The translations under genes and the position numbers were made by a program. 64,000 bases of DNA, from positions 124,001-188,000 of the forward strand of contig JAKSPJ010000003.1 of NCBI GenBank assembly GCA_024404915.1, in the 5' to 3' direction. The notes beneath the pieces were generated by a model, which made no database searches, was not told the origin of the DNA, and saw only the letters and a list, made by a program, of their open reading frames with translations. Shown piece by piece: positions 10,203 to 29,834 of the stretch (position 1 is its first letter; the number at the start of each line of letters is the position of its first letter). Source of the stretch: Oscillospiraceae bacterium (GTDB taxonomy: Bacteria; Bacillota; Clostridia; Oscillospirales; Ruminococcaceae).

Positions 10203-10207
10203 TTTGT

Positions 10208-10969: not shown

Positions 10970-11030
10970 CTGTTTTCCTCGTAAATGATATATCGGGCGG
11001 AATGCAATCCCGTTACAGGGGGATTACATG

Positions 11031-11059
11031 AACGAGACCGCCAGAAGGGCAGTCTCGCT
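11031..11059 (-). terminator. possible terminator of the cpsB operon
   Basis: Imperfect stem GCGAGAC-GCC/GGC-GTCTCG directly after the phosphatase gene on the minus strand. The T-run is weak, so the call is tentative. Confidence 0.45.
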
Positions 11060-11063
11060 TGTG

Positions 11064-11735
11064 TTATGCTTTGGGGAGATATCCGGCAATGCGCTGCATT
11101 GCTTCCGCAATCACAGGCTTTCTGACCTTTCGCAGAAGCAAATCCCAGTTGGGTTTTCTGTTTTTCAGGTTATGACTGTCCGAACCGAAAATGACAGGGT
11201 ATTCGTCCTTTATCAGCCGGCGGACAAAGCGGCGTTCCCTGAAATTACCAAAGGCTTCATTGTTGATCTGAAAGATGGCCTTGGTTTTCAGCACCTGTTC
11301 CATGACATCTTTCGGATAGAATGACAGATACCGATGGATATGGGCAATCACCGGCTGTAGTTTGTAAGTCACCGCAATTTCGTGCAGCTCTTCGCCCATC
11401 CAGGGAGAATACCCCGTGTAGGGATATTCCAGGAGTATCAGATTTGTACCCTGAATGGCAAGCTGTTCAATGCCCTCCAGTTTGGAAATGCCGTGTTCAA
11501 TCGCAACTTCTGCACCCAGCAGCATATTGGCAGGTGCGTCAAGAGCAGCATAGGCTTTTTCACGCTTTTCCAGATATGCCGCCAGAGATTTCTCCCGGTG
11601 GGCATAAAAGTGCGGCGTTGCAATAATGGTGGCTACGCCCTGCTTCTGAAGAATATCCAGCATCTGACGGGAGGTTTCAACGGAATCGCTGCCGTCATCC
11701 ATGCCGGGAAGAATATGAATGTGTGCATCAATCAT
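11064..11735 (-). CDS. CpsB/Wzb-type PHP-family tyrosine phosphatase
   Basis: A 223-residue manganese-dependent phosphatase that dephosphorylates the polysaccharide tyrosine kinase encoded just upstream. The PHP metal motif IDAHIHILPGMDDGS opens the protein and further metal ligands are seen in ATPHFY near 44, AHIHRY near 130 and GSDSH near 186. Its start overlaps the kinase stop by four bases (ATGA). Phosphatase and kinase cycle together to control chain length and export of surface polysaccharide. Confidence 0.88.
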   Translation of the reverse strand: MIDAHIHILPGMDDGSDSVETSRQMLDILQKQGVATIIATPHFYAHREKSLAAYLEKREKAYAALDAPANMLLGAEVAIEHGISKLEGIEQLAIQGTNLILLEYPYTGYSPWMGEELHEIAVTYKLQPVIAHIHRYLSFYPKDVMEQVLKTKAIFQINNEAFGNFRERRFVRRLIKDEYPVIFGSDSHNLKNRKPNWDLLLRKVRKPVIAEAMQRIAGYLPKA

Positions 11736-13300: not shown

Positions 13301-13359
13301 TGCTACATACTCCTTCTCAAAAACAATTTCAGCCCGATACACGACAGTGCAGCCGGCGG

Positions 13360-14437: not shown

Positions 14438-14466
14438 ATTATAGTATGATTTTATTTGTCTGTCAA
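14438..14466 (-). promoter_or_regulatory. consensus promoter of the kinase/phosphatase operon
   Basis: On the minus strand TTGACA (14461-14466) and TATAAT (14438-14443) are 17 bases apart, a perfect housekeeping-type promoter. The leader to the nucleotidyltransferase start is about 130 bases. Confidence 0.85.
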
Positions 14467-14762: not shown

Positions 14763-14791
14763 TTGACAAATGCAGATTGCTATGCTATAAT
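14763..14791 (+). promoter_or_regulatory. consensus promoter of the polysaccharide operon
   Basis: TTGACA (14763-14768) and TATAAT (14786-14791) with a 17-base spacer, a perfect match, facing away from the promoter at 14438-14466. Confidence 0.85.
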
Positions 14792-15067: not shown

Positions 15068-16282
15068 ATGGATACAAATATAAAAAATATTCCATTCAGC
15101 CCGCCTGATATTTCTGCGGCAGAAATCCAGGAGGTTTGCGATGCTTTGAAGTCCGGCTGGATTACAACAGGTCCCCGTACCAAGCAGCTGGAGCGTGAAA
15201 TTGCAGAATATGTGGGCGTGAACCGTGCGGTCTGCCTTAATTCTCAGACAGCCTGTGCAGAGATGGCACTTCGGATTCTGGGCATCGGACCGGGAGACGA
15301 GGTCATTGTTCCTGCCTATACCTACACTGCTTCCGCATCTGTGGTGTGCCATGTGGGCGCAAAACTGGTGCTTGTGGATGTGCAGAAGGATTGCCTGGAA
15401 ATGGATTATGATGCGCTGGAAGCAGCCATTACTGAAAAAACCAAGGCGATTATTCCGGTGGATCTGGCAGGTATCCCCTGCGATTATGAGCGTATTTATT
15501 CCATCGTGAACAGCAAAAAGGCGATGTTCCGTCCCTCCGGTAAAATCCAGGAAGCTATCGGCAGAATTGCCGTCTGTGCGGATACTGCCCACGCCTTCGG
15601 TGCACAGAGACTTGGAAAAATGGCCGGCAGCATCGCTGACTTTTCCTCCTTCTCCTTCCATGCTGTGAAGAATTTCACCACAGCAGAGGGCGGTGCCCTG
15701 ACATGGAATACCATTGAGGGTATCGATGATGAGGAAATCTATCATCAGATTCAGCTTCTGAGTCTCCATGGACAGAGCAAGGATGCATTGGCAAAAACCA
15801 AGCTGGGCGCATGGGAGTACGATATTGTCGGTACATGGTACAAGTGCAATATGACAGATATCGCTGCTGCAATGGGGCTTGCACAGATGAAGAGATACCC
15901 GGAGATGCTGAAGCGCAGACGTCAGATCATTGAAACGTACGATGCGGCGTTCCGTCCCCTTGGCGTGAAGACACTGGCACACTATACAGACACCCACATT
16001 TCCTCCGGCCACCTGTATCTTACAAGAGTGCCCGGAATTGATGCGGAGGAGCGTTCTGCACTGATTATCCGCATGGCGGAAAAGGGCATTTCCTGCAATG
16101 TACACTATAAGCCGCTGCCGATGCATACCGCATATCGGAATCTGGGCTTTGATATTCAGGATTATCCGAATGCATATGCACAGTTTGCAAATGAAATTTC
16201 CCTGCCGCTGCATACCTGTCTGACAGATGATGACATGGCTTACGTGATTGAAGGCTATTGCGAAGTTCTGAAATCCCGTTGA
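15068..16282 (+). CDS. DegT/DnrJ/EryC1-type sugar aminotransferase
   Basis: A 404-residue PLP enzyme expected to turn a nucleotide keto-sugar into an amino sugar. The N-terminal SGWITTGPRT block (about 29-38), SQTACAEMAL near 59-68, VPAYTYTASA near 81-90, and the PLP lysine in FSFHAVKNFTTAEGGAL (about K201) are all present. It is the first gene of the rightward polysaccharide operon. The amino group it installs would be a natural acceptor for the acetyltransferase two genes downstream. A weak AAGGAAG precedes the ATG. Confidence 0.9.
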   Translation: MDTNIKNIPFSPPDISAAEIQEVCDALKSGWITTGPRTKQLEREIAEYVGVNRAVCLNSQTACAEMALRILGIGPGDEVIVPAYTYTASASVVCHVGAKLVLVDVQKDCLEMDYDALEAAITEKTKAIIPVDLAGIPCDYERIYSIVNSKKAMFRPSGKIQEAIGRIAVCADTAHAFGAQRLGKMAGSIADFSSFSFHAVKNFTTAEGGALTWNTIEGIDDEEIYHQIQLLSLHGQSKDALAKTKLGAWEYDIVGTWYKCNMTDIAAAMGLAQMKRYPEMLKRRRQIIETYDAAFRPLGVKTLAHYTDTHISSGHLYLTRVPGIDAEERSALIIRMAEKGISCNVHYKPLPMHTAYRNLGFDIQDYPNAYAQFANEISLPLHTCLTDDDMAYVIEGYCEVLKSR

Positions 16283-16327
16283 TGAAGAACTTATTACGGC
16301 GCTTTTTAGCTTGGAAAGGTTGGTAAG

Positions 16328-16921
16328 ATGTTATACAGAAAATATATCAAGCGTTGGTTTGACCTCTTTTTTGCAATTATGCTGCTGCCGTTTTTCTGCA
16401 TTCTGTTTATTGTGGTTGCTCCATTGATTTACCTGGAGGACAGAGGCCCGATTTTCTACAATGCACCACGGCTCGGACGTAACGGCAAGACATTCATGAT
16501 GTACAAATTCCGCTCCATGAAAGTGAATGCCCCGGACCTCCGCAATGAGGATGGCACCACATTCAATTCGGAAAATGACCCCCGTGTGACACGCATCGGC
16601 AGACTGCTGAGAAAGACATCTCTGGATGAAATCCCCCAGCTGCTGAATGTACTTCGGGATGAAATGAGCTTTATCGGCCCCCGTCCTGATTTGCCGGGCT
16701 CTGAAAAGACAACCTACAGACCGGGTGATATCAAAAAGCTGATTGTAAACCCGGGCATCACAGGATACAGCCAGGCATATTACAGAAATGCTTCTACCCT
16801 GGATCAGCGCTTTGACGGTGATTTGTACTATGCAAAGCATGTATCTCTGCTTCTGGATCTGAAGATATTGTTTAAGACAGTTGAAATCGTGCTGAAGCAC
16901 ACAAATGTATATAGGAACTGA
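16328..16921 (+). CDS. undecaprenyl-phosphate sugar phosphotransferase (initiating sugar transferase)
   Basis: A 197-residue polyprenyl-phosphate phosphotransferase that starts the repeat unit by moving a sugar 1-phosphate to the lipid carrier. It has the N-terminal membrane segment (about 10-35) with KRWFDLFF, then the catalytic KFRSMK, GRLLRKTSLDEIPQL and MSFIGPRPD blocks. Its small size is that of the short, single-domain enzymes of Bacillota and of PglC. The next gene begins two bases after its stop. Confidence 0.92.
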   Translation: MLYRKYIKRWFDLFFAIMLLPFFCILFIVVAPLIYLEDRGPIFYNAPRLGRNGKTFMMYKFRSMKVNAPDLRNEDGTTFNSENDPRVTRIGRLLRKTSLDEIPQLLNVLRDEMSFIGPRPDLPGSEKTTYRPGDIKKLIVNPGITGYSQAYYRNASTLDQRFDGDLYYAKHVSLLLDLKILFKTVEIVLKHTNVYRN

Positions 16922-16923
16922 TT

Positions 16924-17646
16924 ATGCAAATTAAAGAAACACCATGGGAAAAGAGAAACCTCGGTGTGAATTCCAGCGTGGAATTTCTCATCGGGAATGA
17001 TGATACACCGGATACAATGAAGGAACTGGGTGTTTGTCAGCATGAATACCAGGTAGCCCATATTGCACCGGGAAATGTCGCTGCATTGCTTTATGCGCAG
17101 GAGCAGGGATTTCGTATCATTGAAATGAATATTCACCTGAAGCGCTCCCTGGAAAATGTGGAGATGCCGAAGATTTATAAGCGATATGAGAAGGTCCTCG
17201 GATACCGCTATGCAGATGAAAAGGATATGGAACAGGTACTGGCGGCAGTGCGCAGCGGCGATATGTTCCTGACGGATAAAATCGCACTGGATCCTGCATT
17301 CAGTACGGAGCTTTCCGGTCATCGCTATGCCTGCTGGACAGAGGATGTTCTGGCAAGAGGTGCAGTGACTGTCATTGCAACCTATAAGGACCAGCCGGTG
17401 GGATTTGAAATCTACGAAGAATCTGAGAATAAATGCACCAATTTTATTGGCGGCGTTTATCCGGAATTTGCTAATAAGGGCTTGGGCTTTGCACCGCTGT
17501 ATATGGAACTGCTGAGCCAGAAGGAACGAGGAAACCGCTCCGTAATCACCGGTGTCTCTTCCAATAATATCCCTGTTCTGAAGCTTCATGAATTGCTGGG
17601 ATATTCTGTGGATGCAATGTCCTATGCGCTGGTGAAGCATCTGTAA
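16924..17646 (+). CDS. GNAT-family acyltransferase, likely acting on a sugar amine
   Basis: A 240-residue protein whose C-terminal half (about 95-240) has the GNAT fold: a VIATYKDQPVGFEIY strand pair, the GVYPEFANKGLGFAPL acyl-CoA loop near 178-193 and a SSNNIPVLKLHELLGY block near the end. The N-terminal half resembles the extra domain of WecD-like sugar N-acyltransferases. Placed after the aminotransferase and sugar transferase and just before ACP-linked genes, it could take acyl groups from either CoA or the carrier protein; the donor is not known. Confidence 0.75.
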   Translation: MQIKETPWEKRNLGVNSSVEFLIGNDDTPDTMKELGVCQHEYQVAHIAPGNVAALLYAQEQGFRIIEMNIHLKRSLENVEMPKIYKRYEKVLGYRYADEKDMEQVLAAVRSGDMFLTDKIALDPAFSTELSGHRYACWTEDVLARGAVTVIATYKDQPVGFEIYEESENKCTNFIGGVYPEFANKGLGFAPLYMELLSQKERGNRSVITGVSSNNIPVLKLHELLGYSVDAMSYALVKHL

Positions 17647-17661
17647 AAAGGAGAATGCGGT

Positions 17662-18411
17662 ATGAGCGATTTATTAAAAGGAAAGGTTTGTCTCGTTACA
17701 GGTACAAGCAAGGGTATCGGCAATAAAACAGTGGAACGCTTTGCAGAAGAGGGTGCCATTGTGTATGCCACCGATTTTGTGGAGGGCTCCATTGATGCAT
17801 TTGCTGCAGAAATGAGCAGCCGCTATCAGACGGAAGTGATTCCGCTGTACTTTAACGTGATAGACGACAAGAGCGCAAGACAGGCATTTCAGACCATCAA
17901 GAAAAACCACGGCAGACTGGATGTTCTGGTGAATAATGCCGGTATTATGCGTGATAATGTCATTGGCATGATTCAGCCCCAGCTGATGCAGGATGTGTTC
18001 AGCGTTAACGTGTTTGCTGTGATTAATCTGATTCAGCTGGCCAATAAGCTGATGAGCAGACAGAAATCAGGAAGCATTATCAATATTACAAGCATTGTTG
18101 GATTGGAGGGTGCACCGGGTCAGGTGGTTTATGCCGCCTCAAAGGGCGCAGTGGCTTCCATTACCAAAGCAGCTGCCAAGGAACTGGCACCCAATGGCAT
18201 TCGTGTGAATGCCGTTGCACCGGGACTGATTGAAACAGGATTGCTTCAGTCTATCAGTGATGAGATGATTGCAGAGAATGTTAAAAATATTCGTATGGGA
18301 AGAGCCGGACAGCCCCTGGATGTGGCAAATGTCATTGCATTCCTTGCATCTGACCTTTCCGGCTATGTAACCGGCAAGATTATTGGTGTGGACGGCGGTA
18401 TGTCCGTTTAA
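17662..18411 (+). CDS. short-chain dehydrogenase/reductase, FabG-like
   Basis: A 249-residue classical SDR with the cofactor loop TGTSKGIG (about 13-20), NNAG near 91-94, and the catalytic Ser144, Tyr157 and Lys161. Length and end match 3-oxoacyl-ACP reductases. Next to a dedicated ACP it may reduce a beta-keto acyl chain on that carrier, or act on a sugar intermediate; the sequence cannot separate these. Confidence 0.85.
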   Translation: MSDLLKGKVCLVTGTSKGIGNKTVERFAEEGAIVYATDFVEGSIDAFAAEMSSRYQTEVIPLYFNVIDDKSARQAFQTIKKNHGRLDVLVNNAGIMRDNVIGMIQPQLMQDVFSVNVFAVINLIQLANKLMSRQKSGSIINITSIVGLEGAPGQVVYAASKGAVASITKAAAKELAPNGIRVNAVAPGLIETGLLQSISDEMIAENVKNIRMGRAGQPLDVANVIAFLASDLSGYVTGKIIGVDGGMSV

Positions 18412-18467
18412 TACAGGATAAAGATGCAGCATCTGAGCTGCGCAAATAAGAAAGGCGGTAATTTATT

Positions 18468-18710
18468 ATGACAAATCTGGAAAAGTACAATCAGGCATTT
18501 ATTGATTCCTTCGAGATTACAGAGGACCAGCTGGCTGGTCTGAAGTATCAGGATATTCCGGCATGGGATTCCGCAGGCCATATGGGTCTGATTTCCGCAC
18601 TGGAAGACGCTTTTGATATTATGATGGATACAGATGATATCATTGATTTCAGCTCTTATGAAAAGGGCAAGGAAATTCTTGCAAAAGATGATTACGGAGT
18701 AGCAATCTGA
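18468..18710 (+). CDS. acyl carrier protein
   Basis: An 80-residue acidic carrier protein. The 4'-phosphopantetheine serine is in AWDSAGHMG (about S35), a D-S-x-x-H variant of the usual D-S-L motif seen in carrier proteins outside primary fatty acid synthesis. The stop overlaps the start of the AMP ligase by one base, so ligase and carrier are coupled. It is likely loaded by that ligase. Confidence 0.88.
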   Translation: MTNLEKYNQAFIDSFEITEDQLAGLKYQDIPAWDSAGHMGLISALEDAFDIMMDTDDIIDFSSYEKGKEILAKDDYGVAI

Positions 18711-20119
18711 TGATCTGGGATTTCAGCCGATTTGCAGATACCCCTGCAATGATTGATGAAAATGGCAGACAAGTTTCCTATGCAGAATTGAAACAGGCAT
18801 CCGAGGTCGTTGCGCAGTGCGTTGGCGGCCGTTGCCTTGTATTTTGTCTGTGCCGCAATGAAATAGGCTCTGTTGTGGGCTATACGGGATTTCTGAACGG
18901 CAGCATCCCGCCTGTCATGCTGAATTCACATCTGGAGGAGGAACTGCTGCGAAACCTGGTGGATTCTTATCAGCCGGCATATCTTTGGTGCCCTGCGGAT
19001 CAGATGGCTCAGTTCCCGGAAATGACTGCGGTGCATGAGGCTTATGAGTATGTATTGCTGAAAACCAATTTTGAGCACAGCTATCCGCTGCATGAGGATC
19101 TTGGTTTGCTGCTGACAACCTCCGGTTCCACAGGCTCTCCGAAATTTGTTCGCCAGACTTATGCCAATGTGCTGGACAATGCCAGATCCATCGTACAGTA
19201 TCTGGAACTGGATGCGACAGAGCGTCCCATTACCACACTGCCGATGAACTATACTTACGGCTTGTCCATTATCAATTCACATCTGCTGGTGGGTGCAACC
19301 ATTCTGGTAACGGAAAAGGGCCTGATGCAGAAGGAATTCTGGAGCTTTTTCAAGGAATCCGGCGCAACCTCCTTCGGCGGTGTGCCCTATACCTATGAAA
19401 TGCTGGACAGACTTCGTTTCTATCGCATGAAGCTGCCGACACTGCGCACTATGACACAGGCAGGCGGCAAGATTCTGCCGGAGCTTCACGAGAAATTTGC
19501 AAATTATGCTGCAGAAAACGGCAAAAAATTTGTAGTGATGTACGGCCAGTGCGAAGCGACTGCAAGAATGGGCTATCTCCCTGCTGATATGGCTGCTGCC
19601 AAAAAGGGTTCCATGGGCATTGCGATTCCCGGCGGAAAATTTCACCTGATTGATGCAAACGGCCAGGAAGTGACAGAGCCGAATGTGACAGGTGAGTTGG
19701 TGTACGAGGGCAAAAATGTTACTATGGGCTATGCAGAGTGCGGCGATGACCTTGCAAAGGGCGATGAGCGCAACGGCATTCTGGAGACAGGCGATATGGC
19801 ACAGTTTGACGAAGATGGCTACTACTATATCGTGGGCAGAAAAAAGCGTTTCCTGAAAATCTACGGAAACAGAGTGAATCTGGACGAGGTGGACAGACTG
19901 GTGCAGGGCAAATTCCATGTGGATTTTGCAAGCTCCGGTGTGGATGACCATATGTATTTGTTTGTGACGGATGAACAGTACGCTGCATCTGTCCGTGACT
20001 TTGTGATTGCAAAAACGAAGCTGAATCCCGCTGCATTCAAGGTGCAGGTAATTGATGAAATACCGAAGAATGATGCAGGAAAAACTTTGTATAAGGAGCT
20101 GACAAAGTATTATGTGTAA
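18710..20119 (+). CDS. AMP-dependent acyl ligase (adenylation enzyme)
   Basis: A 469-residue ANL-superfamily enzyme. It has LTTSGSTGSPKFV near 135-147 (the P-loop), a YGQCEAT block near 278, GETGDMA-type ETGDMAQF near 360, and the C-terminal hinge and lysine (KNDAGKTLYKEL). It would activate an organic acid with ATP and hand it to the ACP encoded just upstream. Residues shaping the acid pocket do not tell me the substrate. It overlaps the ACP by one base and the thioesterase by eight. Confidence 0.85.
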   Translation: MIWDFSRFADTPAMIDENGRQVSYAELKQASEVVAQCVGGRCLVFCLCRNEIGSVVGYTGFLNGSIPPVMLNSHLEEELLRNLVDSYQPAYLWCPADQMAQFPEMTAVHEAYEYVLLKTNFEHSYPLHEDLGLLLTTSGSTGSPKFVRQTYANVLDNARSIVQYLELDATERPITTLPMNYTYGLSIINSHLLVGATILVTEKGLMQKEFWSFFKESGATSFGGVPYTYEMLDRLRFYRMKLPTLRTMTQAGGKILPELHEKFANYAAENGKKFVVMYGQCEATARMGYLPADMAAAKKGSMGIAIPGGKFHLIDANGQEVTEPNVTGELVYEGKNVTMGYAECGDDLAKGDERNGILETGDMAQFDEDGYYYIVGRKKRFLKIYGNRVNLDEVDRLVQGKFHVDFASSGVDDHMYLFVTDEQYAASVRDFVIAKTKLNPAAFKVQVIDEIPKNDAGKTLYKELTKYYV

Positions 20120-20804
20120 AAAACAGATATTTTGTTTTCCTTTTGCCGGCGGTACTTCCGCTTTTTACGATCAGATTGAAAAAGACTTGCCTGCATATGA
20201 ACTTGTCAAAATGGAATATCCGGGACACGGCACACGTCATAAGGAGCCGTTATTGAACGATTTTTCCATGCTGGCGGATGATGTGTTTTCACATATGCAG
20301 GCGGCCTATCACGGCGGTGATTATGCACTGTTTGGTTATAGTATGGGCACAATCACCTTGTCGGAGGTGCTTCGCCGTATCATTCTTTCTGATATGCCGC
20401 TGCCCAGATGTGTATTTCTGGCGGCTCATGAGCCACAGACCTTTGCATCTCTGGCGGATTATCAGGATGAAGGTAAGGACGAAGAAGTTATCAGACGTAC
20501 CATTGCATTTGGTACTGTCCCGGAAAAATTAATAGATAATAAGACATTTTGGCGCACTTATCTTCCGCTTTTAAAAGCGGATTACGCAATGATTGGCAAA
20601 TACCGTTTTGAAGACTTGAAACTGCAAACTAATATTCCGGCCTGGATATTCTATTCAGAAGAAGATACGAAGCGCTGTGATATGGAAGGGTGGCGAAAGT
20701 ATTTTCAGGGCGTTTGCGAGTATCAGGCGTTTGAGGGCAGCCATTTCTTTATACGGAATTATCACGAAGCGATGGCTGAAACCATTCAGGATGCATTCAT
20801 TTGA
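20112..20804 (+). CDS. type II thioesterase, alpha/beta hydrolase
   Basis: A 230-residue hydrolase of the editing thioesterase family associated with carrier-protein systems. The N-terminal FPFAGGTSAFY segment, the GYSMGT nucleophile elbow (about S77) and a late histidine in GSHFFI (about H213) are visible. It probably removes wrong acyl groups from the ACP or releases the finished one. Its overlap with the ligase gene supports a shared pathway. Confidence 0.85.
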   Translation: MCKKQIFCFPFAGGTSAFYDQIEKDLPAYELVKMEYPGHGTRHKEPLLNDFSMLADDVFSHMQAAYHGGDYALFGYSMGTITLSEVLRRIILSDMPLPRCVFLAAHEPQTFASLADYQDEGKDEEVIRRTIAFGTVPEKLIDNKTFWRTYLPLLKADYAMIGKYRFEDLKLQTNIPAWIFYSEEDTKRCDMEGWRKYFQGVCEYQAFEGSHFFIRNYHEAMAETIQDAFI

Positions 20805-20821
20805 TTGATTGAGGTGAACAA

Positions 20822-21913
20822 ATGACATACGAGGAAATCGTTTCAATTTCACCCTATTCCCTGTCAAAGGCAGAAAAGGAAAAGCTGCTGACAGAACGGT
20901 TGGTGGAGTTGACAAAGCTGCATCAGGAAAACTGTGCAGAGTATGCGAATATACTGGAAAGTCTTGATTTTGATGTGGACAAGGTTCAGAGTTATAAGGA
21001 TTTGCCGTTCCTGCCGGTACGCATGTTCAAGGAGCTGGAACTGAAGTCGATTCCGAAAGAGGAAGTCATCAAGACCATGACCTCCTCCGGTACAACAGGA
21101 CAGGCGGTCAGCAAGATTTATCTGGATAAAAATACATCATCAAACCAGCAGAAAACCATGGTAAAGATTGTATCAGAGTTTACCGGTTCCGGCCGTATGC
21201 CGATGATTATCATTGACTGTCCCAGTGTTATCAAGAACAGAGCCATGTTCTCTGCACGAGGCGCAGGTATTCTGGGCTTCTCCATTTTCGGTTCGAAAAA
21301 AATCTATGCGCTGGATGATGATATGAAGCTGAACATCGAGGAACTGAAGGCGTTTCTGGAAAAATACCAGGGCCAGAGAATTTTTCTTTTCGGCTTTACT
21401 TTTATGATCTGGCAGCATTTCTATAAAGAGCTGGTTCGCCTGAAGGAAGAGGGCATTGTCTTCGATCTTTCCCAGGGCGTGCTGATTCACGGCGGCGGCT
21501 GGAAAAAGCTGGTGTCAGAGGCTGTCAGTGAAGAGGATTTCCATCAGCGTCTCAAGGATGTCTGCGGACTGGAATCCATTCACGATTACTATGGCATGGT
21601 GGAACAGACCGGCTGCATCTATATGGAATGTGAGTGCAGCCATCTTCATGCAAGTATTTTCTCCGATGTCATTATCCGGAATCCGAAGGACTTTTCTGAG
21701 TGCGGAATCGGTGAAACCGGTATCATTCAGGTGGTCTCCACCATCCCGGAATCCTATCCCGGCCACAGTCTGCTGACGGAAGACGAAGGTGTTCTGTTGG
21801 GTGAGGATGATTGTCCCTGCGGCCGCATGGGCAAATATTTCAAGATAAATGGAAGACTGAAAAATGCTGAAATCAGGGGGTGCAGTGATACTTATGCCGA
21901 TAAATTTAAATAA
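20822..21913 (+). CDS. LuxE-like acyl-protein synthetase
   Basis: A 363-residue LuxE-family enzyme. In the bacterial luciferase system LuxE activates a fatty acid as AMP ester and passes it to the reductase LuxC. The ATP-binding TSSGTTGQAVSKIY motif (near residue 87) and a long shared body with a GGGWKKL block near 225 are seen. It ends at 21913, overlapping luxC, the partner reductase, which strengthens both calls. No luxA or luxB is present, so light is not the product. RBS GAGGTG precedes the start. Confidence 0.85.
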   Translation: MTYEEIVSISPYSLSKAEKEKLLTERLVELTKLHQENCAEYANILESLDFDVDKVQSYKDLPFLPVRMFKELELKSIPKEEVIKTMTSSGTTGQAVSKIYLDKNTSSNQQKTMVKIVSEFTGSGRMPMIIIDCPSVIKNRAMFSARGAGILGFSIFGSKKIYALDDDMKLNIEELKAFLEKYQGQRIFLFGFTFMIWQHFYKELVRLKEEGIVFDLSQGVLIHGGGWKKLVSEAVSEEDFHQRLKDVCGLESIHDYYGMVEQTGCIYMECECSHLHASIFSDVIIRNPKDFSECGIGETGIIQVVSTIPESYPGHSLLTEDEGVLLGEDDCPCGRMGKYFKINGRLKNAEIRGCSDTYADKFK

Positions 21914-23108
21914 GAAAGTGCTGGAAAAAGCAACCTATCTGACAGGCGATGCAGACACTGCGGCAATGCTGCCCACTGTCCCTGCAAAGCAGCCCTTTGC
22001 GGAAGATATCATTGAGTTCCTGAATGATGTGTCCAGGGAAATTATGAAAAACCGTGCAGCAAAAATCTATTCTGATGTTGTCACATTCGGCTTCTGGATT
22101 CGTAAGGCTTCCATTCTGAAACTGAAGGAACGCTATGATACGGAAACCAAGGACATCCGTATGGGACGTGGTGTGGCATTCCATATTGCACCTTCCAATG
22201 TGCCGGTAAACTTTGCATATTCCCTGGTGGCAGGCCTGGTCACAGGCAATGCCAACGTGGTGCGTGTGCCTTCCAAGGATTTTCCGCAGGTGAAGATTCT
22301 GGCAGATGCCATCAACAAGGTGCTGGAAGAACGCCCGGAAATGAAGCCCTATGTGCTTCTGGTGCGCTATGGCAGAGACCAGACTGTGAATGATGCTTTG
22401 TCTTCTGCAGCAGATACCCGTATTGTCTGGGGCGGTGACCAGACCATTGCTGAACTGAGAAAATCCCCTCTGCCGCCAAGATCCGGTGAGGTGACTTTTG
22501 CAGACAGATATTCTCTGGCTGTGATTGATTCTGACAGCTATCTTGCACTGGAAAACAAGGAAAAGACAGCTGACGATTTTTATAACGATACCTTCTTTAC
22601 CGACCAGAATGCCTGCACCAGTCCCCGTATTATTGTCTGGACCGGAAGCCGCAGGGAAGAAGCAAAACAGTTGTTCTGGGATACCCTGCATCAGCTGGTG
22701 GAAAAGAAGTATACATTCCAGCCCATTCAGGGCGTCAATAAGCTCACCAGCAGCTATCTGATTGCTGCTGTAAAGCCGGGATGCAAAATTGAAAAGCGTT
22801 CTGACAATCTGATTGTGCGTGTTCGGGTGCCGGAGGTGTCCGATCAGCTGATGGAATTGAAGGATAACAGCGGTTATTTCTTTGAGTATGACTGTGATGA
22901 TATCCTGGAGCTCCGCCCGCTTTGCGATAACAAGAGATGCCAGACCATCGGTTATATCGGTGACAGCGATGTGCTGAAGCCTCTGATATATTCGGGTGTT
23001 AAGGGTATTGACAGAATTGTGCCTGTTGGCAAGACAATGGATTTTGATTTGATCTGGGATGGGTATGATTTGCCGGCTTTGCTGACAAGAACCGTTTCAA
23101 TTTCATAA
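21894..23108 (+). CDS. LuxC-like acyl-CoA/acyl-protein reductase
   Basis: A 404-residue reductase that would turn an activated acid into an aldehyde with NADPH. The aldehyde-dehydrogenase-type fold shows VVTFGFWIRKASI near 62-74, HIAPSNVPVNFAYS (about 97-110), and the catalytic cysteine in FFTDQNACTSPR (about C241). The frame opens at 21864, but AGGGGG at 21875-21880 suits the ATG at 21894 (13 bases) or a GTG at 21885 better; I choose the ATG, with some doubt. It overlaps the luxE gene by 20 bases. Confidence 0.85.
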   Translation: MPINLNKKVLEKATYLTGDADTAAMLPTVPAKQPFAEDIIEFLNDVSREIMKNRAAKIYSDVVTFGFWIRKASILKLKERYDTETKDIRMGRGVAFHIAPSNVPVNFAYSLVAGLVTGNANVVRVPSKDFPQVKILADAINKVLEERPEMKPYVLLVRYGRDQTVNDALSSAADTRIVWGGDQTIAELRKSPLPPRSGEVTFADRYSLAVIDSDSYLALENKEKTADDFYNDTFFTDQNACTSPRIIVWTGSRREEAKQLFWDTLHQLVEKKYTFQPIQGVNKLTSSYLIAAVKPGCKIEKRSDNLIVRVRVPEVSDQLMELKDNSGYFFEYDCDDILELRPLCDNKRCQTIGYIGDSDVLKPLIYSGVKGIDRIVPVGKTMDFDLIWDGYDLPALLTRTVSIS

Positions 23109-23193
23109 GGAGATACCATTCTGTCCATTGGAAAGAAGTCGGTGGGCTGCCTTGCGGCCCGCATATGAATATTATTGAATATGGAGATGCAGT

Positions 23194-24054
23194 ATGCCGG
23201 AAAATGAAAAGAAATCCACCGAATTTGTAGCGGATGAAGATTTGCGCTACGTTCAGATGGCGTGTTTGGAAATTCTGAAAAAAGTCAGAGACATTTGTGA
23301 GCAGTATGGACTGCGGTATTATCTTGCCTATGGAACATTGCTGGGTGCTGTGCGCCATAAGGGATTTATTCCCTGGGATGATGATATCGATATCTGGATG
23401 CCCAGAGAGGATCATGAGAAGTTCATTAAGCTGGCAAGAAAGGCCATTAAGCCTTATACCATCAATTATTTCTCTGTGAAAAATGATGCATTTTTCAAGT
23501 TCAAGCCGTTGCTTTCCATTGAGGACCATCGTGTGAAAGTGGGCTTTGATCTGGACCATTCTGAAAAATATGGCTATATCTGGATTGATATTATTGCCAT
23601 GGACGGAATGCCCACAGATCCACGGAAACGCCGTCAGCACTGCAAGGCATTTCAGCTGTGGTATACCATTATCGGTTTTGCCCGTTCCAACAGAACAGGT
23701 GTGCTGAATATGGAATCCCAGAGCACCATCAGAAAGATTGGCATTAAGCTGAATCAGATTACACATATCGGCGATTTGCTGAATCCGGATAAGTGTATCG
23801 CAGGCTTTAAAAAATGCAAGATGAAGTATGATTTTGACACAGCCAAATATGTGCATGGTTCTACCAATGCCTACATTGAGAAATCTGTGTTCAAGAAAAA
23901 GTGGTTTGACGGAGAACGAAAGGCACTGTATGAAGGAGAGATGTTCTCTGTGCCTATGGGAACTGAAAAAATCCTGACACAGCTGTATGGCGATTATATG
24001 ACACCGCCTCCGCCGGAAAAGCGGACACAGCTGCATTATCATGTGATTAAGTGA
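23194..24054 (+). CDS. LicD-family phosphotransferase
   Basis: A 286-residue LicD protein. The family moves phosphocholine, phosphoethanolamine-like or other phospho groups from a nucleotide-linked donor to sugars of surface glycans. The diagnostic block TLLGAVRHKGFIPWDDDID sits at about residues 48-66 with YLAYG just ahead. A DIIAMDGMP segment near 134 follows. The combination with a phosphonopyruvate decarboxylase in the same operon makes a phosphonate head group such as aminoethylphosphonate worth considering. Donor pathway genes licA/licC are not seen. Confidence 0.88.
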   Translation: MPENEKKSTEFVADEDLRYVQMACLEILKKVRDICEQYGLRYYLAYGTLLGAVRHKGFIPWDDDIDIWMPREDHEKFIKLARKAIKPYTINYFSVKNDAFFKFKPLLSIEDHRVKVGFDLDHSEKYGYIWIDIIAMDGMPTDPRKRRQHCKAFQLWYTIIGFARSNRTGVLNMESQSTIRKIGIKLNQITHIGDLLNPDKCIAGFKKCKMKYDFDTAKYVHGSTNAYIEKSVFKKKWFDGERKALYEGEMFSVPMGTEKILTQLYGDYMTPPPPEKRTQLHYHVIK

Positions 24055-24072
24055 GGAATAGGGAGATAGCTT

Positions 24073-25041
24073 ATGCCGAAGATTAGCATTGTGGTTCCGG
24101 TATACAATATTGAAAAATATCTGGATAAATGTGTGCAGTCAATTCTTGACCAGACATTCACGGATACAGAGATTATTCTGGTTGATGACGGATCCTCCGA
24201 TTCTTCCGGTAAGATGTGCGACCAGTGGAAAGAGAAGGATAGCAGAATTGTTGTCATTCATAAGGAAAACGGCGGTCTGAGCGATGCTCGTAATGTGGGT
24301 ATTGCCCAGGCAAAAAGCGAATATATCGGTCTGGTGGACGGAGATGACTTTATTAAGCCGGATATGTTTGAAATCCTGTACCGCAATATCCGCAAGACGA
24401 AGGCAGATATTTCGATGTGCGGTTTTGCAGATTATTATCAGAGCGGTGTCCGTAACGACTGTGATGATAAGAATACCATCTACAAATGGAATCAGGAAGA
24501 GACCATTCAGCGCATTCTGATTGGAAAGCAGCAGTCTGTACACGCTGTTACCAAGCTGTATAAGAAATCCTTGTTCGATAAGGCAAAGTATCCTTATGGC
24601 AAGGTGAATGAAGATGCGTTCATTATTATGGATATTCTGGACCAGATTCAGACAGCAGTATACACTCCTTATGCAGGCTACTATTATGTGCATAGAGCAG
24701 GCAGTATCTGCACCGGTACCTACAAGCCATCGGATAAAGCAAGACTGGAAGCCTATGAAAAGAATCTGAAGTATATTCAGAAGAATTGGCCGCATCTGGA
24801 ATCCTATGCCCAGGCAAGATACCTGGATGCACATATTGTGCTGGCAGACAAAATGGTGCTGAATCATCTGAGCGCCAGCCATCCGGACCATAAATTGGTA
24901 TTTTCTTATATGCGCCGTCATTACATTCGTGCATTGGTCAGCCCTGCCATTAAACTGGGCAAGAAAATCCGTATTACACTGATGCTTCTGAACGAGGGGC
25001 TGTATCGTAAGTACGCCGGAAAGGTAAGCGGCCAGGTATGA
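24073..25041 (+). CDS. family 2 glycosyltransferase
   Basis: A 322-residue GT-A fold glycosyltransferase. It has the N-terminal ISIVVPVYNIEKYL, the LVDDGSSDSSGK nucleotide motif, GLVDGDDFIKP (DxD-like) and a GKVNEDAF ED motif near 180. It adds one sugar to the lipid-linked repeat unit. It is the only clear glycosyltransferase besides the initiating enzyme in this locus. It overlaps the polymerase gene by four bases (ATGA). Confidence 0.92.
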   Translation: MPKISIVVPVYNIEKYLDKCVQSILDQTFTDTEIILVDDGSSDSSGKMCDQWKEKDSRIVVIHKENGGLSDARNVGIAQAKSEYIGLVDGDDFIKPDMFEILYRNIRKTKADISMCGFADYYQSGVRNDCDDKNTIYKWNQEETIQRILIGKQQSVHAVTKLYKKSLFDKAKYPYGKVNEDAFIIMDILDQIQTAVYTPYAGYYYVHRAGSICTGTYKPSDKARLEAYEKNLKYIQKNWPHLESYAQARYLDAHIVLADKMVLNHLSASHPDHKLVFSYMRRHYIRALVSPAIKLGKKIRITLMLLNEGLYRKYAGKVSGQV

Positions 25042-26519
25042 GATGCAAACCATTGCCGCTGAGCAGATTGCTCCTGCTTGCATTGGGAATCGTGGTGTTC
25101 CTTTTCAGCTACTATCTGAAAAATCTGTTTGGTATGAACATCAGTATTCTGATGGTGTGGCTGAGTAATATTTTCTATGGCTGTGAAAAGATAAAGACGA
25201 GGGTTTACTACCTGGCTTTTATGGGCACGTTTTTTACCTTTTTGCTTGGAAAAACGGTTTCCAATATTCTGGGATATTCAGAGAATGAATATTCCCGCTA
25301 CTTTAACTATTCAATTGACGCACACACCTGTCTGTGCCTGTTCATTGCGCTGGTGACCTGTTCCTTTGTGTTTCCTTTGCTGGAAAACCTGAAAATTTCC
25401 ATCCTGGAAGGGCACACAGCGGAGAAGCCTGCCATACTGTACACGATGGACTACTACACGCAGGAGTACAACAGTGTGCGGACAGTTGCATTACTGCTGT
25501 TTTATTTCACAATTCCATTTGCATTGCTGGTTGGTCTGGATAAGGCGATTTTTGTCAGTACCAGCGGTTATGCAGATTTTTATGTGAATTACACTTCACG
25601 GTTCCCCTATATCATTGTGAAGCTGGGAGACTTCTGCAGGGTTGCGTTTCTGATTTTTCTGGCAACATTCCCACGAAAAAAAGAAACGATTATTCCCATT
25701 ATTCTGTATGTGTGCCTGGCAGTTCTGGGCATGTTCTCCGGAAAGCGTACAGAGTTGATTGCCCCTCTTGCAATGGTCATTCTGTATGCAGTATCCCGAA
25801 ATCACATCAATACCGTGAAACCCTGGGTTACCAAAAAGCATGTCTGGCTGATGGTGGCGGCGGCACCATTTATGCTGGCCGCACTCTATTTATACAATAA
25901 CTACCGGTTTGGCTTTGCAAATTCGGAAAAGCTGTCTATTGTAAAATCAGCGGCGGATTTCTTCGACAGCACCGGTTTTAGTGTAAATGTTATCAGCTTT
26001 GAAAAACTGTATGCCTCTGTTTTGCCGGATAAGATTTATTCTTTTGGCGATACCATTGACTATCTCCGTGAAAATCTGATTACACAGATGTTTGTAAAAT
26101 TGCCTGTGTATTCCAGCAATACCGTGGAGAAAGCCTTAAACGGCAATCTGTTGGCAGAGGCCATTACCTACCGCTATTCTGCACCATTCTATTTGTCGGG
26201 CCGTGGACTTGGTTCCTGTTACATTGCAGAAGCCTATCACGATTTTGGATACGGCGGCATTGTACTCTGGAGCACCATTTACTGCCTGGCACTGAAATAC
26301 CTGTTTTCCTTTGAAGGAAAGGGCATCATCTACTGCACACTGTCTTTGCAGGCATTGAGAAGTATTTTGCTGGCACCCCGTAATGCAGCAAGCCTGTTTA
26401 TTTCTGAGTATATCAGCATTGATACATGGCTTGTCATTGTGATGGTGTTTGTGGGTGCCTTTATCTGGAGAAAACTGGATCTATCGTTTACATTCAGGAG
26501 ACGTAGCTATGAAAGTTAG
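25038..26519 (+). CDS. Wzy-like polysaccharide polymerase
   Basis: A 493-residue integral membrane protein with about 11-12 helices and a large extracytoplasmic loop near 290-400, the layout of O-antigen polymerases. It would join repeat units outside the membrane. The MFSGKRTELIAP segment in the middle fits the arginine-bearing loop seen in the O-antigen polysaccharide polymerase family. Genes overlap on both sides. Confidence 0.82.
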   Translation: MRCKPLPLSRLLLLALGIVVFLFSYYLKNLFGMNISILMVWLSNIFYGCEKIKTRVYYLAFMGTFFTFLLGKTVSNILGYSENEYSRYFNYSIDAHTCLCLFIALVTCSFVFPLLENLKISILEGHTAEKPAILYTMDYYTQEYNSVRTVALLLFYFTIPFALLVGLDKAIFVSTSGYADFYVNYTSRFPYIIVKLGDFCRVAFLIFLATFPRKKETIIPIILYVCLAVLGMFSGKRTELIAPLAMVILYAVSRNHINTVKPWVTKKHVWLMVAAAPFMLAALYLYNNYRFGFANSEKLSIVKSAADFFDSTGFSVNVISFEKLYASVLPDKIYSFGDTIDYLRENLITQMFVKLPVYSSNTVEKALNGNLLAEAITYRYSAPFYLSGRGLGSCYIAEAYHDFGYGGIVLWSTIYCLALKYLFSFEGKGIIYCTLSLQALRSILLAPRNAASLFISEYISIDTWLVIVMVFVGAFIWRKLDLSFTFRRRSYES

Positions 26520-27633
26520 TGTGATTACTCTGCATTCATCCATCAATTATGGTTCTGTACTGCAGACCTACGCAACACAGACTGTTCTGAAATCTGTTGG
26601 TGCAGAGGCAGAGTTTGTGGATTATTACAGACCGAACAATACGGAACACCACCGTGTCCGTGAAGTTATGTCATCCGGCGGATACAAAAAGCTGCATGAC
26701 ATGAGCCTGGGTCTTGCTGACCCCGTGCTGAGGCAGATTGCAAGAAAAAGAATCAACCGACGGCTGATTCCTCTGAAGAAATTTCTGAAGCAATACTGCA
26801 CCCTGACGGAGAATGCCTATTATTCCATCAAGGAACTGCAAAGCAATCCGCCTATGGCTGATGTATATATGACGGGCAGTGACCAGGTCTGGAATACAGA
26901 CTGGAACGGTAAAATTGACCGTGCCTATTTTCTGGAGTATGCGCCTGAGGGAAAAAAACGCATTGCGTATTCTGCAAGCATCGGAAAGACAGAATTGAAT
27001 GACAAGGAAAAAGTGGCTTTCCGTCAGATGCTGAAAAAGTATGACAGTATTTCCATGCGTGAGCAGAGCGGTGTTGAGGTGCTGGAATCTCTGGGAATTG
27101 ATTCAGTGCAGGTGCTGGATCCGACACTGATGCTGAATCGTGATGAATGGTGTAAGCTTGCGGTGGAGGCACCGGTGAAAAAGCCGTTTCTGCTGGTCTA
27201 TCAGCTGAATCATAATCCGGAAATGCGGGCATATACCGAGAAGATGGCTGCAAAGCTTGGCCTGGAGCTGGTGAATATCAAGAAGGCAAAGGAAAGACAG
27301 CTGAGGGCAAAGCCGGGCATTACTGATATAGTGGCACCGGATGTGGGACAGTTTATCTGGCTGTTCCGCAACGCAAAGTATGTGATTACGGATTCTTTCC
27401 ATGCGACCGCTTTTTCGCTGAATTTCCATACACCGTTTCTTATTATTCTGCCGAAGCTGTTCAGTACACGTCTGGAGAGCATCACTGCGCTGACGCATAC
27501 CGGCAATCGTATTCTGACGGATCTGACAGATACAAAGACAATTCAGAAACCCATTGATTGGGAGTATGCAGACAGTGTACTGCAAAAAGAACGGGAAAAG
27601 AGTCTTGACTTTTTAAGACAGGCTTTGAAGTAA
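26509..27633 (+). CDS. polysaccharide pyruvyl transferase family protein
   Basis: A 374-residue enzyme expected to add a pyruvyl ketal from PEP to a sugar of the polymer. Family signatures include VSVITLHSSINYGSVLQ at the N-terminus, YMTGSDQVWN near 122, and the YVITDSFHATAFS block near 305. I start at ATG 26509, preceded by AGGAG; the frame is open from 26449 but that is inside the polymerase. It gives the polymer negative charge. Confidence 0.87.
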   Translation: MKVSVITLHSSINYGSVLQTYATQTVLKSVGAEAEFVDYYRPNNTEHHRVREVMSSGGYKKLHDMSLGLADPVLRQIARKRINRRLIPLKKFLKQYCTLTENAYYSIKELQSNPPMADVYMTGSDQVWNTDWNGKIDRAYFLEYAPEGKKRIAYSASIGKTELNDKEKVAFRQMLKKYDSISMREQSGVEVLESLGIDSVQVLDPTLMLNRDEWCKLAVEAPVKKPFLLVYQLNHNPEMRAYTEKMAAKLGLELVNIKKAKERQLRAKPGITDIVAPDVGQFIWLFRNAKYVITDSFHATAFSLNFHTPFLIILPKLFSTRLESITALTHTGNRILTDLTDTKTIQKPIDWEYADSVLQKEREKSLDFLRQALK

Positions 27634-27661
27634 GTATATTACAGAAGGGATATGTATTGTT

Positions 27662-28783
27662 ATGAAAGTTGAAAGCCTTGTAAACATTATTGGAGCTGAT
27701 TTTTATACCGGTGTGCCGGATTCACAGCTGAAGGCACTTTGTAATTATCTGATGAATACCTACGGCATTGATCAGCATCATCATATTATCGCTGCAAACG
27801 AGGGAAACTGTACCGCTCTGGCAGCAGGTTATCATCTTGCTACAGGCAAGGTGCCGGTTGTGTACATGCAGAATTCCGGAGAGGGCAATATCATCAATCC
27901 GGTGGCTTCTCTTCTGAATGATAAGGTGTATGCCATTCCGATGATTTTCATTGTGGGCTGGAGAGGCGAACCCGGTGTGCACGATGAGCCGCAGCATATT
28001 TATCAGGGCGAAGTGACCGTGAAACTGCTGGAGGATATGGACATCCGGACATTTATCATCGGCAAGGATACCACTGAGGAAGAACTTACCGCTGTGATGG
28101 AGGAATACCGCAGTGTGCTGGAAAAGGGCAAGCAGGTTGCTTTCGTTGTCCGCAAGGGCGCTTTGAAATATGAAACAGAAGTGGAATATTCCAACAGCAA
28201 CAAGATGATTCGTGAAGAAATCATTCAGCATATTGCAAAGGCAACAGGGGAGGATCCGATTGTATCTACCACAGGAAAGCCCAGCAGGGAACTCTTTGAG
28301 ACAAGAACTGCGAATGGTCAGAGCCATAAGTATGACTTCCTGACAGTTGGTTCTATGGGCCATACTTCTTCCATCGCTTTGGGCATTGCACTGAATAAGC
28401 CGAATCAGAGAATCTGGTGTGTGGATGGCGACGGCGCTGTTCTGATGCACATGGGTTCCATGGCAGTGCTGGGTGCCAATAAGCCGGAAAACGTAATTCA
28501 TGTTGTGATTAACAATGGCGCACATGAAACAGTTGGCGGCATGCCCACTGTTGCTTCTCAGATTGACCTGGTAGCCATTGCTAAGGCATGTGGATACCCG
28601 AACGCAGTATGCGTGGATAATTTTGATGATCTGGATAAGGAAATGGAAGCTGCAAAGGGCAGAAAGGAACTCTCCCTGATTGAAGTGAAGTGCTCCATCG
28701 GTGCAAGAGATGACCTTGGCAGACCAACAACAACAGCATTGGAAAACAAAGAGAACTTTATGGCTTATCTGGCAGAGCTGTAA
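27662..28783 (+). CDS. ThDP-dependent phosphonopyruvate/sulfopyruvate decarboxylase-like enzyme
   Basis: A 373-residue thiamine-diphosphate decarboxylase in the phosphonopyruvate decarboxylase family, which forms phosphonoacetaldehyde, the first committed step to aminoethylphosphonate. The N-terminal domain has FYTGVPDSQLKAL and NEGNCTALAAGYHLATGK; the C-terminal domain holds the ThDP motif GDGAVLMHMG...NNG (near 260-292). The decarboxylase needs PEP mutase upstream, and no such gene is in the window; mutase may be elsewhere, or the enzyme acts on another 2-oxo acid. Placed with LicD in the polymer operon. Confidence 0.82.
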   Translation: MKVESLVNIIGADFYTGVPDSQLKALCNYLMNTYGIDQHHHIIAANEGNCTALAAGYHLATGKVPVVYMQNSGEGNIINPVASLLNDKVYAIPMIFIVGWRGEPGVHDEPQHIYQGEVTVKLLEDMDIRTFIIGKDTTEEELTAVMEEYRSVLEKGKQVAFVVRKGALKYETEVEYSNSNKMIREEIIQHIAKATGEDPIVSTTGKPSRELFETRTANGQSHKYDFLTVGSMGHTSSIALGIALNKPNQRIWCVDGDGAVLMHMGSMAVLGANKPENVIHVVINNGAHETVGGMPTVASQIDLVAIAKACGYPNAVCVDNFDDLDKEMEAAKGRKELSLIEVKCSIGARDDLGRPTTTALENKENFMAYLAEL

Positions 28784-28811
28784 TTTTCATAACGAAGACA
28801 TGAGGTGAAGA

Positions 28812-29834
28812 ATGGCAACTGTATTACTGGCAGGCGGTGCGGGCTATATCGGTTCACATACCGCTGTGGAATTATTGAATGCAGGTTATGAGGTTGTAAT
28901 TGCAGATAACTTTGCAAACAGCTCACCGGAGTCTGTCCGCAGAGTAGAGCAGATTACCGGAAAAAAGGTGACACTCTATGAGCTGGATATCAAGGACCGT
29001 GCCGGATTATCAGAGGTATTTCACGCCCATCAGATTGATGCTGTAATTCATTTTGCAGGCTTGAAGGCGGTTGGCGAGTCCGTGGAAAAGCCCATTATGT
29101 ACTATCGGAATAACATTGACACGACACTCTCTCTGTTGGAGGTAATGCAGGAAGCTGATGTGAAAAAAATCATCTTCTCTTCCAGTGCCACTGTGTACGG
29201 AGAGACAAATCCGGTACCCTATACAGAGACAATGCCCAGAGGTGTCTGTACAAATCCATATGGCTGGACCAAGGCAATGATGGAGCAGATTTTTGAGGAT
29301 GCAGCCAGGGCGGATCAGGCACTGTCTGTGATTCTGCTTCGTTATTTCAATCCCATTGGTGCGCATGCTTCCGGTCGGATTGGTGAGGATCCCCAGGGTA
29401 TTCCGAATAACCTGATGCCTTATGTGACACAGGTTGCAGTTGGTAAGAGAGCATGCCTGACCATCTATGGCAATGATTATCCTACACCGGACGGTACCTG
29501 CACCAGAGATTACATTCATGTTGTGGATCTGGCAAAGGGCCATGTCAAGGCAATTCAGTATATTCTGCAGAATCATTGCATGGAGATTATCAATCTCGGA
29601 ACAGGTCAGCCCTATAGTGTTACGGAGATTGTGGATACCTTCGAGAAAGTCAACGGCGTAAAAATCAATCATGTTTATGGTGCGAGACGTGCCGGCGATT
29701 TGCCTGCATGCTATGCAAATGCGGATAAGGCACTTGAGATTCTGGGGTGGAAAACGGAACTGTCCCTGGAGGATATGTGCAGAGATGCATGGAACTGGCA
29801 GAAACAGAATCCCAATGGCTATCAGAACGCATAA
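28812..29834 (+). CDS. galE: UDP-glucose 4-epimerase
   Basis: A 340-residue extended SDR that interconverts UDP-glucose and UDP-galactose (or the GlcNAc forms). It has LAGGAGYIGSHTAVEL at the N-terminus, SSATVYGE with the catalytic serine near 123, and NPYGWTKAMMEQ with Tyr and Lys. Length and body are typical. It is the last gene of the rightward operon and supplies galactose-type precursors. Confidence 0.92.
   Translation: MATVLLAGGAGYIGSHTAVELLNAGYEVVIADNFANSSPESVRRVEQITGKKVTLYELDIKDRAGLSEVFHAHQIDAVIHFAGLKAVGESVEKPIMYYRNNIDTTLSLLEVMQEADVKKIIFSSSATVYGETNPVPYTETMPRGVCTNPYGWTKAMMEQIFEDAARADQALSVILLRYFNPIGAHASGRIGEDPQGIPNNLMPYVTQVAVGKRACLTIYGNDYPTPDGTCTRDYIHVVDLAKGHVKAIQYILQNHCMEIINLGTGQPYSVTEIVDTFEKVNGVKINHVYGARRAGDLPACYANADKALEILGWKTELSLEDMCRDAWNWQKQNPNGYQNA

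Follow-up and report, generated by a model that had tools for sequence, protein, structure and literature searches.

Within a 64,000-nt stretch of an Oscillospiraceae bacterium genome (GCA_024404915.1, contig JAKSPJ010000003.1, positions 124,001-188,000 of the forward strand; referred to as the window, whose own numbering is used below), 15 plus-strand genes at 15068-29834, with intergenic gaps of at most 85 nt, make up an apparent operon. Inside it lies a cassette of seven genes (16924-23108) that includes a LuxE/LuxC pair and an acyl carrier protein (ACP). The cassette is flanked on its 5' side by a phosphoglycosyl transferase (PGT) of the Bac_transf family and on its 3' side by a LicD gene, and its genes are spaced by 56 to -20 nt. 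The original prediction, made from the letters alone, had placed seven such genes between the sugar transferase and LicD; all were found at the claimed positions on the plus strand, and matches to Pfam and NCBIfam profiles confirm their families. They are as follows.

16924..17646, plus strand: WecD-fold GNAT, a predicted 4-amino-sugar N-acyltransferase
17662..18411, plus strand: FabG-like short-chain dehydrogenase/reductase (SDR) of the 'type I' clade, assigned by Pfam/NCBIfam and by tree
18468..18710, plus strand: ACP, with phosphopantetheine Ser35 in a WDS motif, assigned by motif alignment
18710..20119, plus strand: AMP-forming acyl ligase, predicted to load the ACP; K458
20112..20804, plus strand: type II thioesterase, predicted to edit mis-loaded ACP; Ser77 and His211
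20822..21913, plus strand: LuxE-family acyl-protein synthetase, with C-terminal Cys354
21894..23108, plus strand: LuxC-family thioester reductase, with Cys241

In the profile searches, the SDR matched PF13561 (E 4e-64), the ligase the AMP-binding family (E 1e-39), the thioesterase the Thioesterase family (E 3e-31), LuxE PF04443 (E 5e-56) and LuxC PF05893 (E 4.5e-27); at E 0.001 the genome has no other PF05893 match. The probable start of LuxC is 21894, although a longer open reading frame (ORF) begins at 21864. The GNAT is weak in profiles (PF00583, E 0.03; WecD model NF008212, E 7e-5), while its predicted structure is clear, a full-length two-domain WecD fold. The ACP falls under the Pfam cut-off (PF00550, E 0.08). 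Its WDS motif with the phosphopantetheine serine is invariant in 51 of 51 aligned rows (relatives, with the window included, here and below), as are Cys241 of LuxC (64 of 64), Cys354 of LuxE (58 of 58), K458 of the ligase (54 of 54) and both Ser77 and His211 of the thioesterase (29 of 29). In alignments to the solved LuxC-LuxE complex 7xc6, each of the two Lux cysteines falls on a cysteine, presumably the acyl-carrying residue there.

One LuxC scan of GTDB contigs gave 65 related loci (cited below by L numbers), many of them from gut or rumen Clostridia assemblies. Core genes were counted in the 59 loci whose sequence extends 5 kb or more ahead of LuxC; the other six of the 65 were set aside because this flank was shorter than 5 kb or LuxC gave no usable match. 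Accessory genes were counted in the 36 loci with wide flanks; since the ORF-based profile finds LuxC itself in 31 of these 36, the counts of absent accessory genes are upper limits. In 57 of the 59 loci a LuxE match begins 0.6-1.5 kb ahead of LuxC. For the ligase the figures are 51 loci at 1.5-5 kb upstream of LuxC and 58 at any position in the locus; for the ACP they are 48 at 2-8.6 kb upstream and 54 at any position. A thioesterase is present in 29. LuxE, ligase and ACP occur jointly upstream of LuxC in 44 of the 59 loci. The core genes are thus neighbours in other genomes; a scatter of unlinked homologues, which the original prediction had named as a ground for its refutation, is not what was found. 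We conclude that the cassette is a real, conserved module with its catalytic residues intact.

Among 197 genomes of the window's family (the window's included), LuxC was found in five (E 1e-40) and the ligase in six (E 1e-80); in all five LuxC genomes the ligase sits on the same contig, no more than 2 kb away. Neither gene was found in the two other genus members searched. Such patchy yet linked presence is as expected of a serotype-like cassette. Among plasmids, 16 records matched; they come from Rhizobium, Ponticoccus, Deinococcus and actinobacteria. The Rhizobium, Ponticoccus and Deinococcus plasmids carry the same gene kinds, with LuxC 32-37% identical. On the Deinococcus plasmid they form one gene run, which directly follows a gene annotated as sugar transferase and precedes one annotated as acetyltransferase; on the Ponticoccus plasmid LuxC stands apart on the opposite strand, and on the Rhizobium plasmid other genes intervene between ligase and LuxE.

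LuxE and LuxC are also found as one protein. Locus L049 encodes a LuxE-LuxC fusion (8873-11197), and in a search for fused forms, which gave 706 relatives of fusion-like length, the best 120 of the 706 carry both Pfam domains; the fusion is common. A second, more distant LuxE/LuxC pair, or a LuxC piece, was seen in L017, L023, L027, L042, L046, L054, L055, L062 and L064. These second copies, at about 52-60% / 39-46% to the window's, often lie with NeuB or an SDR and possibly serve two successive acid reductions.

Immediately upstream of the cassette stand the first two genes of the operon.

15068..16282, plus strand: DegT-family aminotransferase, predicted maker of a UDP-4-amino-4,6-dideoxy-HexNAc (UDP-AATGal)
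16328..16921, plus strand: initiating PGT (Bac_transf), nearest solved relative PglC-type

The best solved relative of the window's DegT is Spr1654 (6ewj; E 1.2e-161, 541 bits, residues 7-399; next match 216 bits), a pneumococcal enzyme proposed in PMC5936713 to make UDP-AATGal; the same product is predicted for DegT from this match. The nearest solved relatives of the PGT are the PglC-type 8g1n (E 8e-36) and 8e37 (E 1.5e-35), and a PglF-like dehydratase is encoded on another contig of the genome.

We propose that the cassette builds a small hydroxy acid on the ACP and uses it to N-acylate the priming amino sugar of a surface polymer, and we consider the chances of this reading to be evenly balanced. 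Gene content, gene order and active-site residues are observed; every step that joins them, as set out here, we infer. LuxE would adenylate one carboxyl of a small dicarboxylic acid and hand the acyl group via Cys354 to Cys241 of LuxC, which would reduce it to a semialdehyde. The type I SDR would reduce the semialdehyde to an omega-hydroxy acid, and the AMP ligase would load the remaining carboxyl on the ACP, with the thioesterase removing wrong loads. On the sugar side, DegT would make UDP-AATGal from the UDP-4-keto sugar of the PglF-like dehydratase, the GNAT would move the acyl group from the ACP to N-4, and the PglC-like transferase would put the acylated sugar-phosphate on its lipid carrier. 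The original prediction had suggested a purpose-made acyl group for the polymer, attached to its own carrier protein; this part of it is supported at the level of a predicted function.

With LuxE and the ligase, the cassette has two acid-activating enzymes, which is hard to explain for a monocarboxylic acid and would fit a diacid. As a first guess, this acid would be L-malate, giving an (S)-2,4-dihydroxybutanoyl group; dihydroxybutanoyl as the acyl group is a tentative assignment, possible but doubtful. (S)-2,4-Dihydroxybutanoate is presumably, stereochemistry included, the tetronic acid of Vibrio cholerae O1. The case for malate is drawn from the relatives, where a gene of the lactate dehydrogenase (LDH) fold is the first plus-strand ORF after LuxC in 18 of the 58 loci having a downstream plus-strand ORF, and overlaps LuxC in 7 of 21. 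At the position that separates malate dehydrogenase (MDH) from LDH specificity, aligned to the Gln of T. maritima LDH, this gene has Arg in 20 of 20 readable rows (of 21). Arg at that position marks MDHs and Gln canonical LDHs, according to PMC4109310, and from this residue the gene behind LuxC is predicted to be a dedicated malate supply. LDH-fold dehydrogenases with the malate-type Arg at position 102 overlap or abut LuxC in L005, L007, L008, L020, L038 and others.

Several observations weigh against malate. Both of the LDH-fold proteins tested score above NCBI's cut-off for L-lactate dehydrogenase (309 and 325 bits vs 303.55), and the nearest solved relative of this gene, also with the Arg, is labelled LDH; for these two reasons malate stands as a residue-based prediction. 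The window operon is without a malate-DH-like gene, and Ldh_1 gave no match in the window's genome, which does have members of the fumarase-C and malic-enzyme families. The enzyme logic would also accommodate succinate or aspartate equally well.

Masses give a further hint. The computed mass of C4H6O3 is 102.032 Da, and that of pseudaminic acid with one acetyl replaced by C4H6O3 is 376.148 Da. For Aeromonas AH-3, which has five gene kinds of the cassette, the published work reports a 102 Da 'unknown' unit and a 376.14 Da linker sugar. The match of C4H6O3 to the 102 Da unit is the hint; the 376 Da fit is non-specific, as adding water to triacetylated pseudaminic acid leads to an identical formula (C15H24N2O9). 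The published sugar of A. caviae is Pse5Ac7Ac9Ac, and for strain AH-1, whose glycan is reported at 403 Da, one figure legend of the paper mentions a '376 Da sugar'; AH-1 itself, judging from a statement on glycosyltransferase genes, appears to be without the cassette. Given the shared formula and the AH-1 legend, the 376 value decides nothing. PMC10204066 concerns a polyketide/nonribosomal peptide synthetase product and was set aside as irrelevant; its apparent mention of LuxE is the surname Luxenburger.

The relatives of the cassette come in several versions, and these bear on what happens to the LuxC aldehyde. A transketolase (TKT) C half is present in 21 of the 36 wide loci (both halves in 15) and NeuB in 16. 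Five loci have both transketolase and NeuB, 16 transketolase only, 11 NeuB only and four neither, a tendency toward mutual exclusion (Fisher p 0.006, kinship ignored). Across L002-L066 it looks as if either enzyme could lengthen the aldehyde. Loci L020 and L024 repeat the order DegT-PGT-GNAT-SDR-(TKT)-ACP-ligase-LuxE-LuxC, with a thioesterase in L020 only of these two, and in both of these near-syntenic loci a transketolase pair stands between SDR and ACP. Such data favour a rival explanation in which the aldehyde gains two carbons by transketolase (or, in other loci, three by a NeuB-type enzyme) before loading and gives a longer polyhydroxy-acyl group. That 32 of the 36 wide relatives carry a transketolase half or NeuB counts against an unextended hydroxy acid; the window operon, which has neither, counts against the rival.

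The SDR tree speaks against chain extension in the window as well. It holds 59 SDRs of 200-300 aa kept by the ORF caller (the L065 SDR, 77% to the window's, is not included), and it places the window SDR in a clade of ten with support 100/99, together with the Ponticoccus and Deinococcus SDRs. Seven of the ten adjoin the ACP with no transketolase between (two of them as a tandem pair), the three exceptions being one L008 copy and two L007 copies; none of the SDRs directly before a transketolase half (18 of the 59 rows) falls in this clade. We call this version, found in the window with the SDR beside the ACP and no transketolase or NeuB, 'type I'. The single NeuB match in the genome scores 31.6 bits (Pfam cut-off 22.1) and is on another contig, and a transketolase C half located elsewhere in the genome may be housekeeping or may serve the cassette. 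On balance, chain extension is an unlikely account of the window. In the broadest form of our proposal, the versions would together make up a widespread modular 'aldehyde route' to glycan acyl groups: malate, from a dedicated MDH in some loci, would be reduced at one end, the aldehyde would be reduced to 2,4-dihydroxybutanoyl (type I) or lengthened by split transketolase or NeuB-like enzymes (types II and III), and the product would pass by way of the ACP to a 4-amino sugar and be the 102 Da moiety of Aeromonas flagellin. As a whole, this chain of claims is rather doubtful, more so than its dihydroxybutanoyl part.

A second rival is the reading already in print for the flagellar islands (PMC4875605 and PMC7874193), namely that LuxE and LuxC act on a fatty acid, and that a fatty acyl or fatty alcohol group ends up on the glycan as a 'liposugar'. 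The family membership of LuxE and LuxC agrees with it. However, against the NCBIfam long-chain models LuxC scores 49 bits vs a cut-off of 750 and LuxE 73 bits vs 550, LuxC has 404 aa vs 477 in 7xc6, and the second acid-activating enzyme is left unexplained. The best solved relatives of the ligase include oxalate, malonyl and 4-hydroxybutyrate CoA ligases, with fatty-acid ligases in the same list. Furthermore, no match to the bacterial-luciferase family PF00296 was obtained in the 96.5% complete genome (a positive control found 10 of 14), which bears out the earlier statement that no luciferase genes accompany this pair. We regard a liposugar as improbable here. With regard to D-alanylation of the DltABCD type, which has a membrane acyltransferase DltB and a D-Ala ligase, DltA is a distant match to the ligase (E 2.5e-12), and among the matches for the operon genes scanned there is no MBOAT family.

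About as improbable is a third possibility, in which the GNAT only uses acetyl-CoA to acetylate N-4, and the acyl group on the ACP is attached at another place on the polymer. The GNAT P-loop resembles the atypical P-loop of WecD, an enzyme that uses acetyl-CoA, and a GNAT is present in 9 of the 36 wide loci (GNAT or PglD-like in 21 of 36). These points weigh against transfer from the ACP, and plain acetylation is possible. The same loop had been considered as a sign of an ACP donor, an idea that was dropped because WecD has this kind of loop and uses acetyl-CoA. Against plain acetylation, the GNAT stands directly before the cassette SDR in the window, L024, L032, L037, L040 and L047, and two places ahead of it in L020, and the operon genes scanned gave no match to any further acyltransferase family.

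The remaining features of the operon and its surroundings are listed below.

14763..14791, plus strand: sigma-70-type promoter match, 12/12 with extended -10, upstream of DegT; consensus match only
14466..14438, minus strand: divergent sigma-70-type match, 12/12, preceding the minus-strand NTP-transferase and Wzz-like genes; consensus only
23194..24054, plus strand: LicD-family phosphotransferase (family match 4e-44), likely for a phospho- or phosphonate substituent
24073..25041, plus strand: GT2 glycosyltransferase, by family match
25038..26519, plus strand: Wzy polymerase, by family match
26509..27633, plus strand: polysaccharide pyruvyl transferase, start set by eye (ORF from 26449)
27662..28783, plus strand: phosphonopyruvate decarboxylase (Ppd), TIGR03297, 471 bits vs a cut-off of 312.5
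28812..29834, plus strand: GalE UDP-glucose 4-epimerase, by family match

Sigma-70-type consensus sites over the region number 28, vs 29.2 expected, and just two score 12/12. The window gave no Rfam match at gathering score to a riboswitch or other known RNA, and a Wzx flippase was not among the families matched by the operon genes scanned. A sortase-domain gene (9507-10262) lies near CpsB-type phosphatase and Wzz-like genes on the minus strand (11064-13342). From the pyruvyl transferase, a pyruvate ketal on the polymer is likely.

The Ppd gene and LicD point to a phosphonate. On another contig of the genome (C29), a fusion protein has a PEP mutase as its C-terminal part (TIGR02320, 397.5 vs 319.55) and an N-terminal part that by eye resembles a nucleotidyltransferase; it adjoins an iron alcohol dehydrogenase and a flippase-like gene. 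With Ppd in the operon and PEP mutase in the genome, LicD is expected to place a phosphonate, and the polymer is predicted to carry a hydroxyethyl- or aminoethyl-phosphonate. Phosphonate-related stretches were noted at 27662-28783 and 23194-24054 of the window and at 4166-9871 of L079. A Ppd relative lies near the cassette only in L033 of the 65 loci, plus genome G015 (L081), and for this reason the phosphonate branch looks independent of the acyl cassette.

LicD enters a fourth rival, in which reduction yields a small alcohol that, once activated, LicD places on the polymer as a phospho-alcohol. LicD starts 85 nt after LuxC, and in L024 too LuxC is followed by LicD, there with a Wzy-like gene. 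Nevertheless, LicD (with the window's as query) is outside the conserved core, occurring only in L024 and L056 of the 65 loci, plus L081; the operon's Ppd offers it a phosphonate instead, and the ACP and ligase are unexplained, all of which makes this account highly improbable. Least credible of all is the idea, raised in the original prediction, that DegT converts the LuxC aldehyde to an amine on the polymer: DegT enzymes do aminate carbonyls and the gene is just upstream in the operon, but Spr1654, its nearest solved relative, has been proposed to be a 4-aminotransferase for nucleotide sugars, the profile detects no DegT in 18 of the 36 wide loci (17 by profile and tblastn both), and the ACP and ligase would be left without a role.

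Taken together, our results favour a small hydroxy-acyl group made on the ACP and passed to an amino sugar. If true, the diacid logic, in which one end is activated and reduced and the other loaded on the ACP, would explain the set in Clostridia, Deinococcus, Alphaproteobacteria and the flagellar islands, and would account for lux-type reductases in bacteria that do not glow; in print, LuxE/LuxC in glycan loci of non-luminous bacteria have been read as fatty-acid or 'liposugar' genes. It would also predict an acyl mass, making the 102 Da unknown of Aeromonas flagellin testable. The acylated sugars may be antigenic and phage-receptor determinants, like the tetronate-bearing O1 antigen of V. cholerae.

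Several known systems resemble the window's. The Lux fatty acid reductase (7xc6) shares with it the families, the cysteine positions and the expected acid-to-aldehyde chemistry, and differs in its luciferase, its longer LuxC and the long-chain models, far below which the window's proteins score. The enterobacterial common antigen WecE/WecD and pneumococcal AATGal modules likewise pair a 4-amino-sugar aminotransferase with a WecD-fold acyltransferase. Pneumococcal AATGal has a free amine. WecD draws on acetyl-CoA, whereas the window has a dedicated acyl-ACP supply next door.

Closer in content are the flagellar islands of Aeromonas group II and Enterobacteriaceae, for which the published gene lists name an ACP, a FabG-like protein, an AMP synthetase/CoA ligase, LuxE and LuxC, all five of which are in the window cluster; the five named genes include no transketolase. 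Their context is flagellar (with pseudaminic acid genes in Aeromonas), in contrast to the AATGal-type priming, Wzy, LicD and phosphonate gene of the window. The claim of an undescribed route must therefore be divided: the gene set is already in print for these islands, and the V. cholerae tetronate genes are related in content, while no tested chemistry for the ACP/SDR/ligase/LuxE/LuxC set was found in the open-licence papers searched, which included PMC4772473, PMC3441752, PMC4964394 and PMC4691044.

The V. cholerae O1 genes VC0248-VC0252 (rfbKLMNO / wbeKLMNO) likewise belong to a polysaccharide cluster whose 4-amino sugar is acylated by tetronate; WbeL is a protein of 471 aa with a putative ATP-binding domain, required for the O1 antigen, and RfbN has a LuxE domain. 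Both this system and that of Aeromonas were compared with the window by gene descriptions, which limits the weight of the likeness. The tetronate gene set was reportedly described by Morona in 1995. WbeL is a relative of the AMP ligase, the rest of the set presumably being ACP, alcohol dehydrogenase and acyltransferase. On this list, ACP, AMP ligase and LuxE/LuxC are common to the two systems. The window has an SDR in the cluster where V. cholerae has the iron alcohol dehydrogenase RfbM (the window genome's own being the one beside PEP mutase on the other contig), a WecD-fold GNAT in place of a hexapeptide transferase, separate LuxE and LuxC, and an extra thioesterase.

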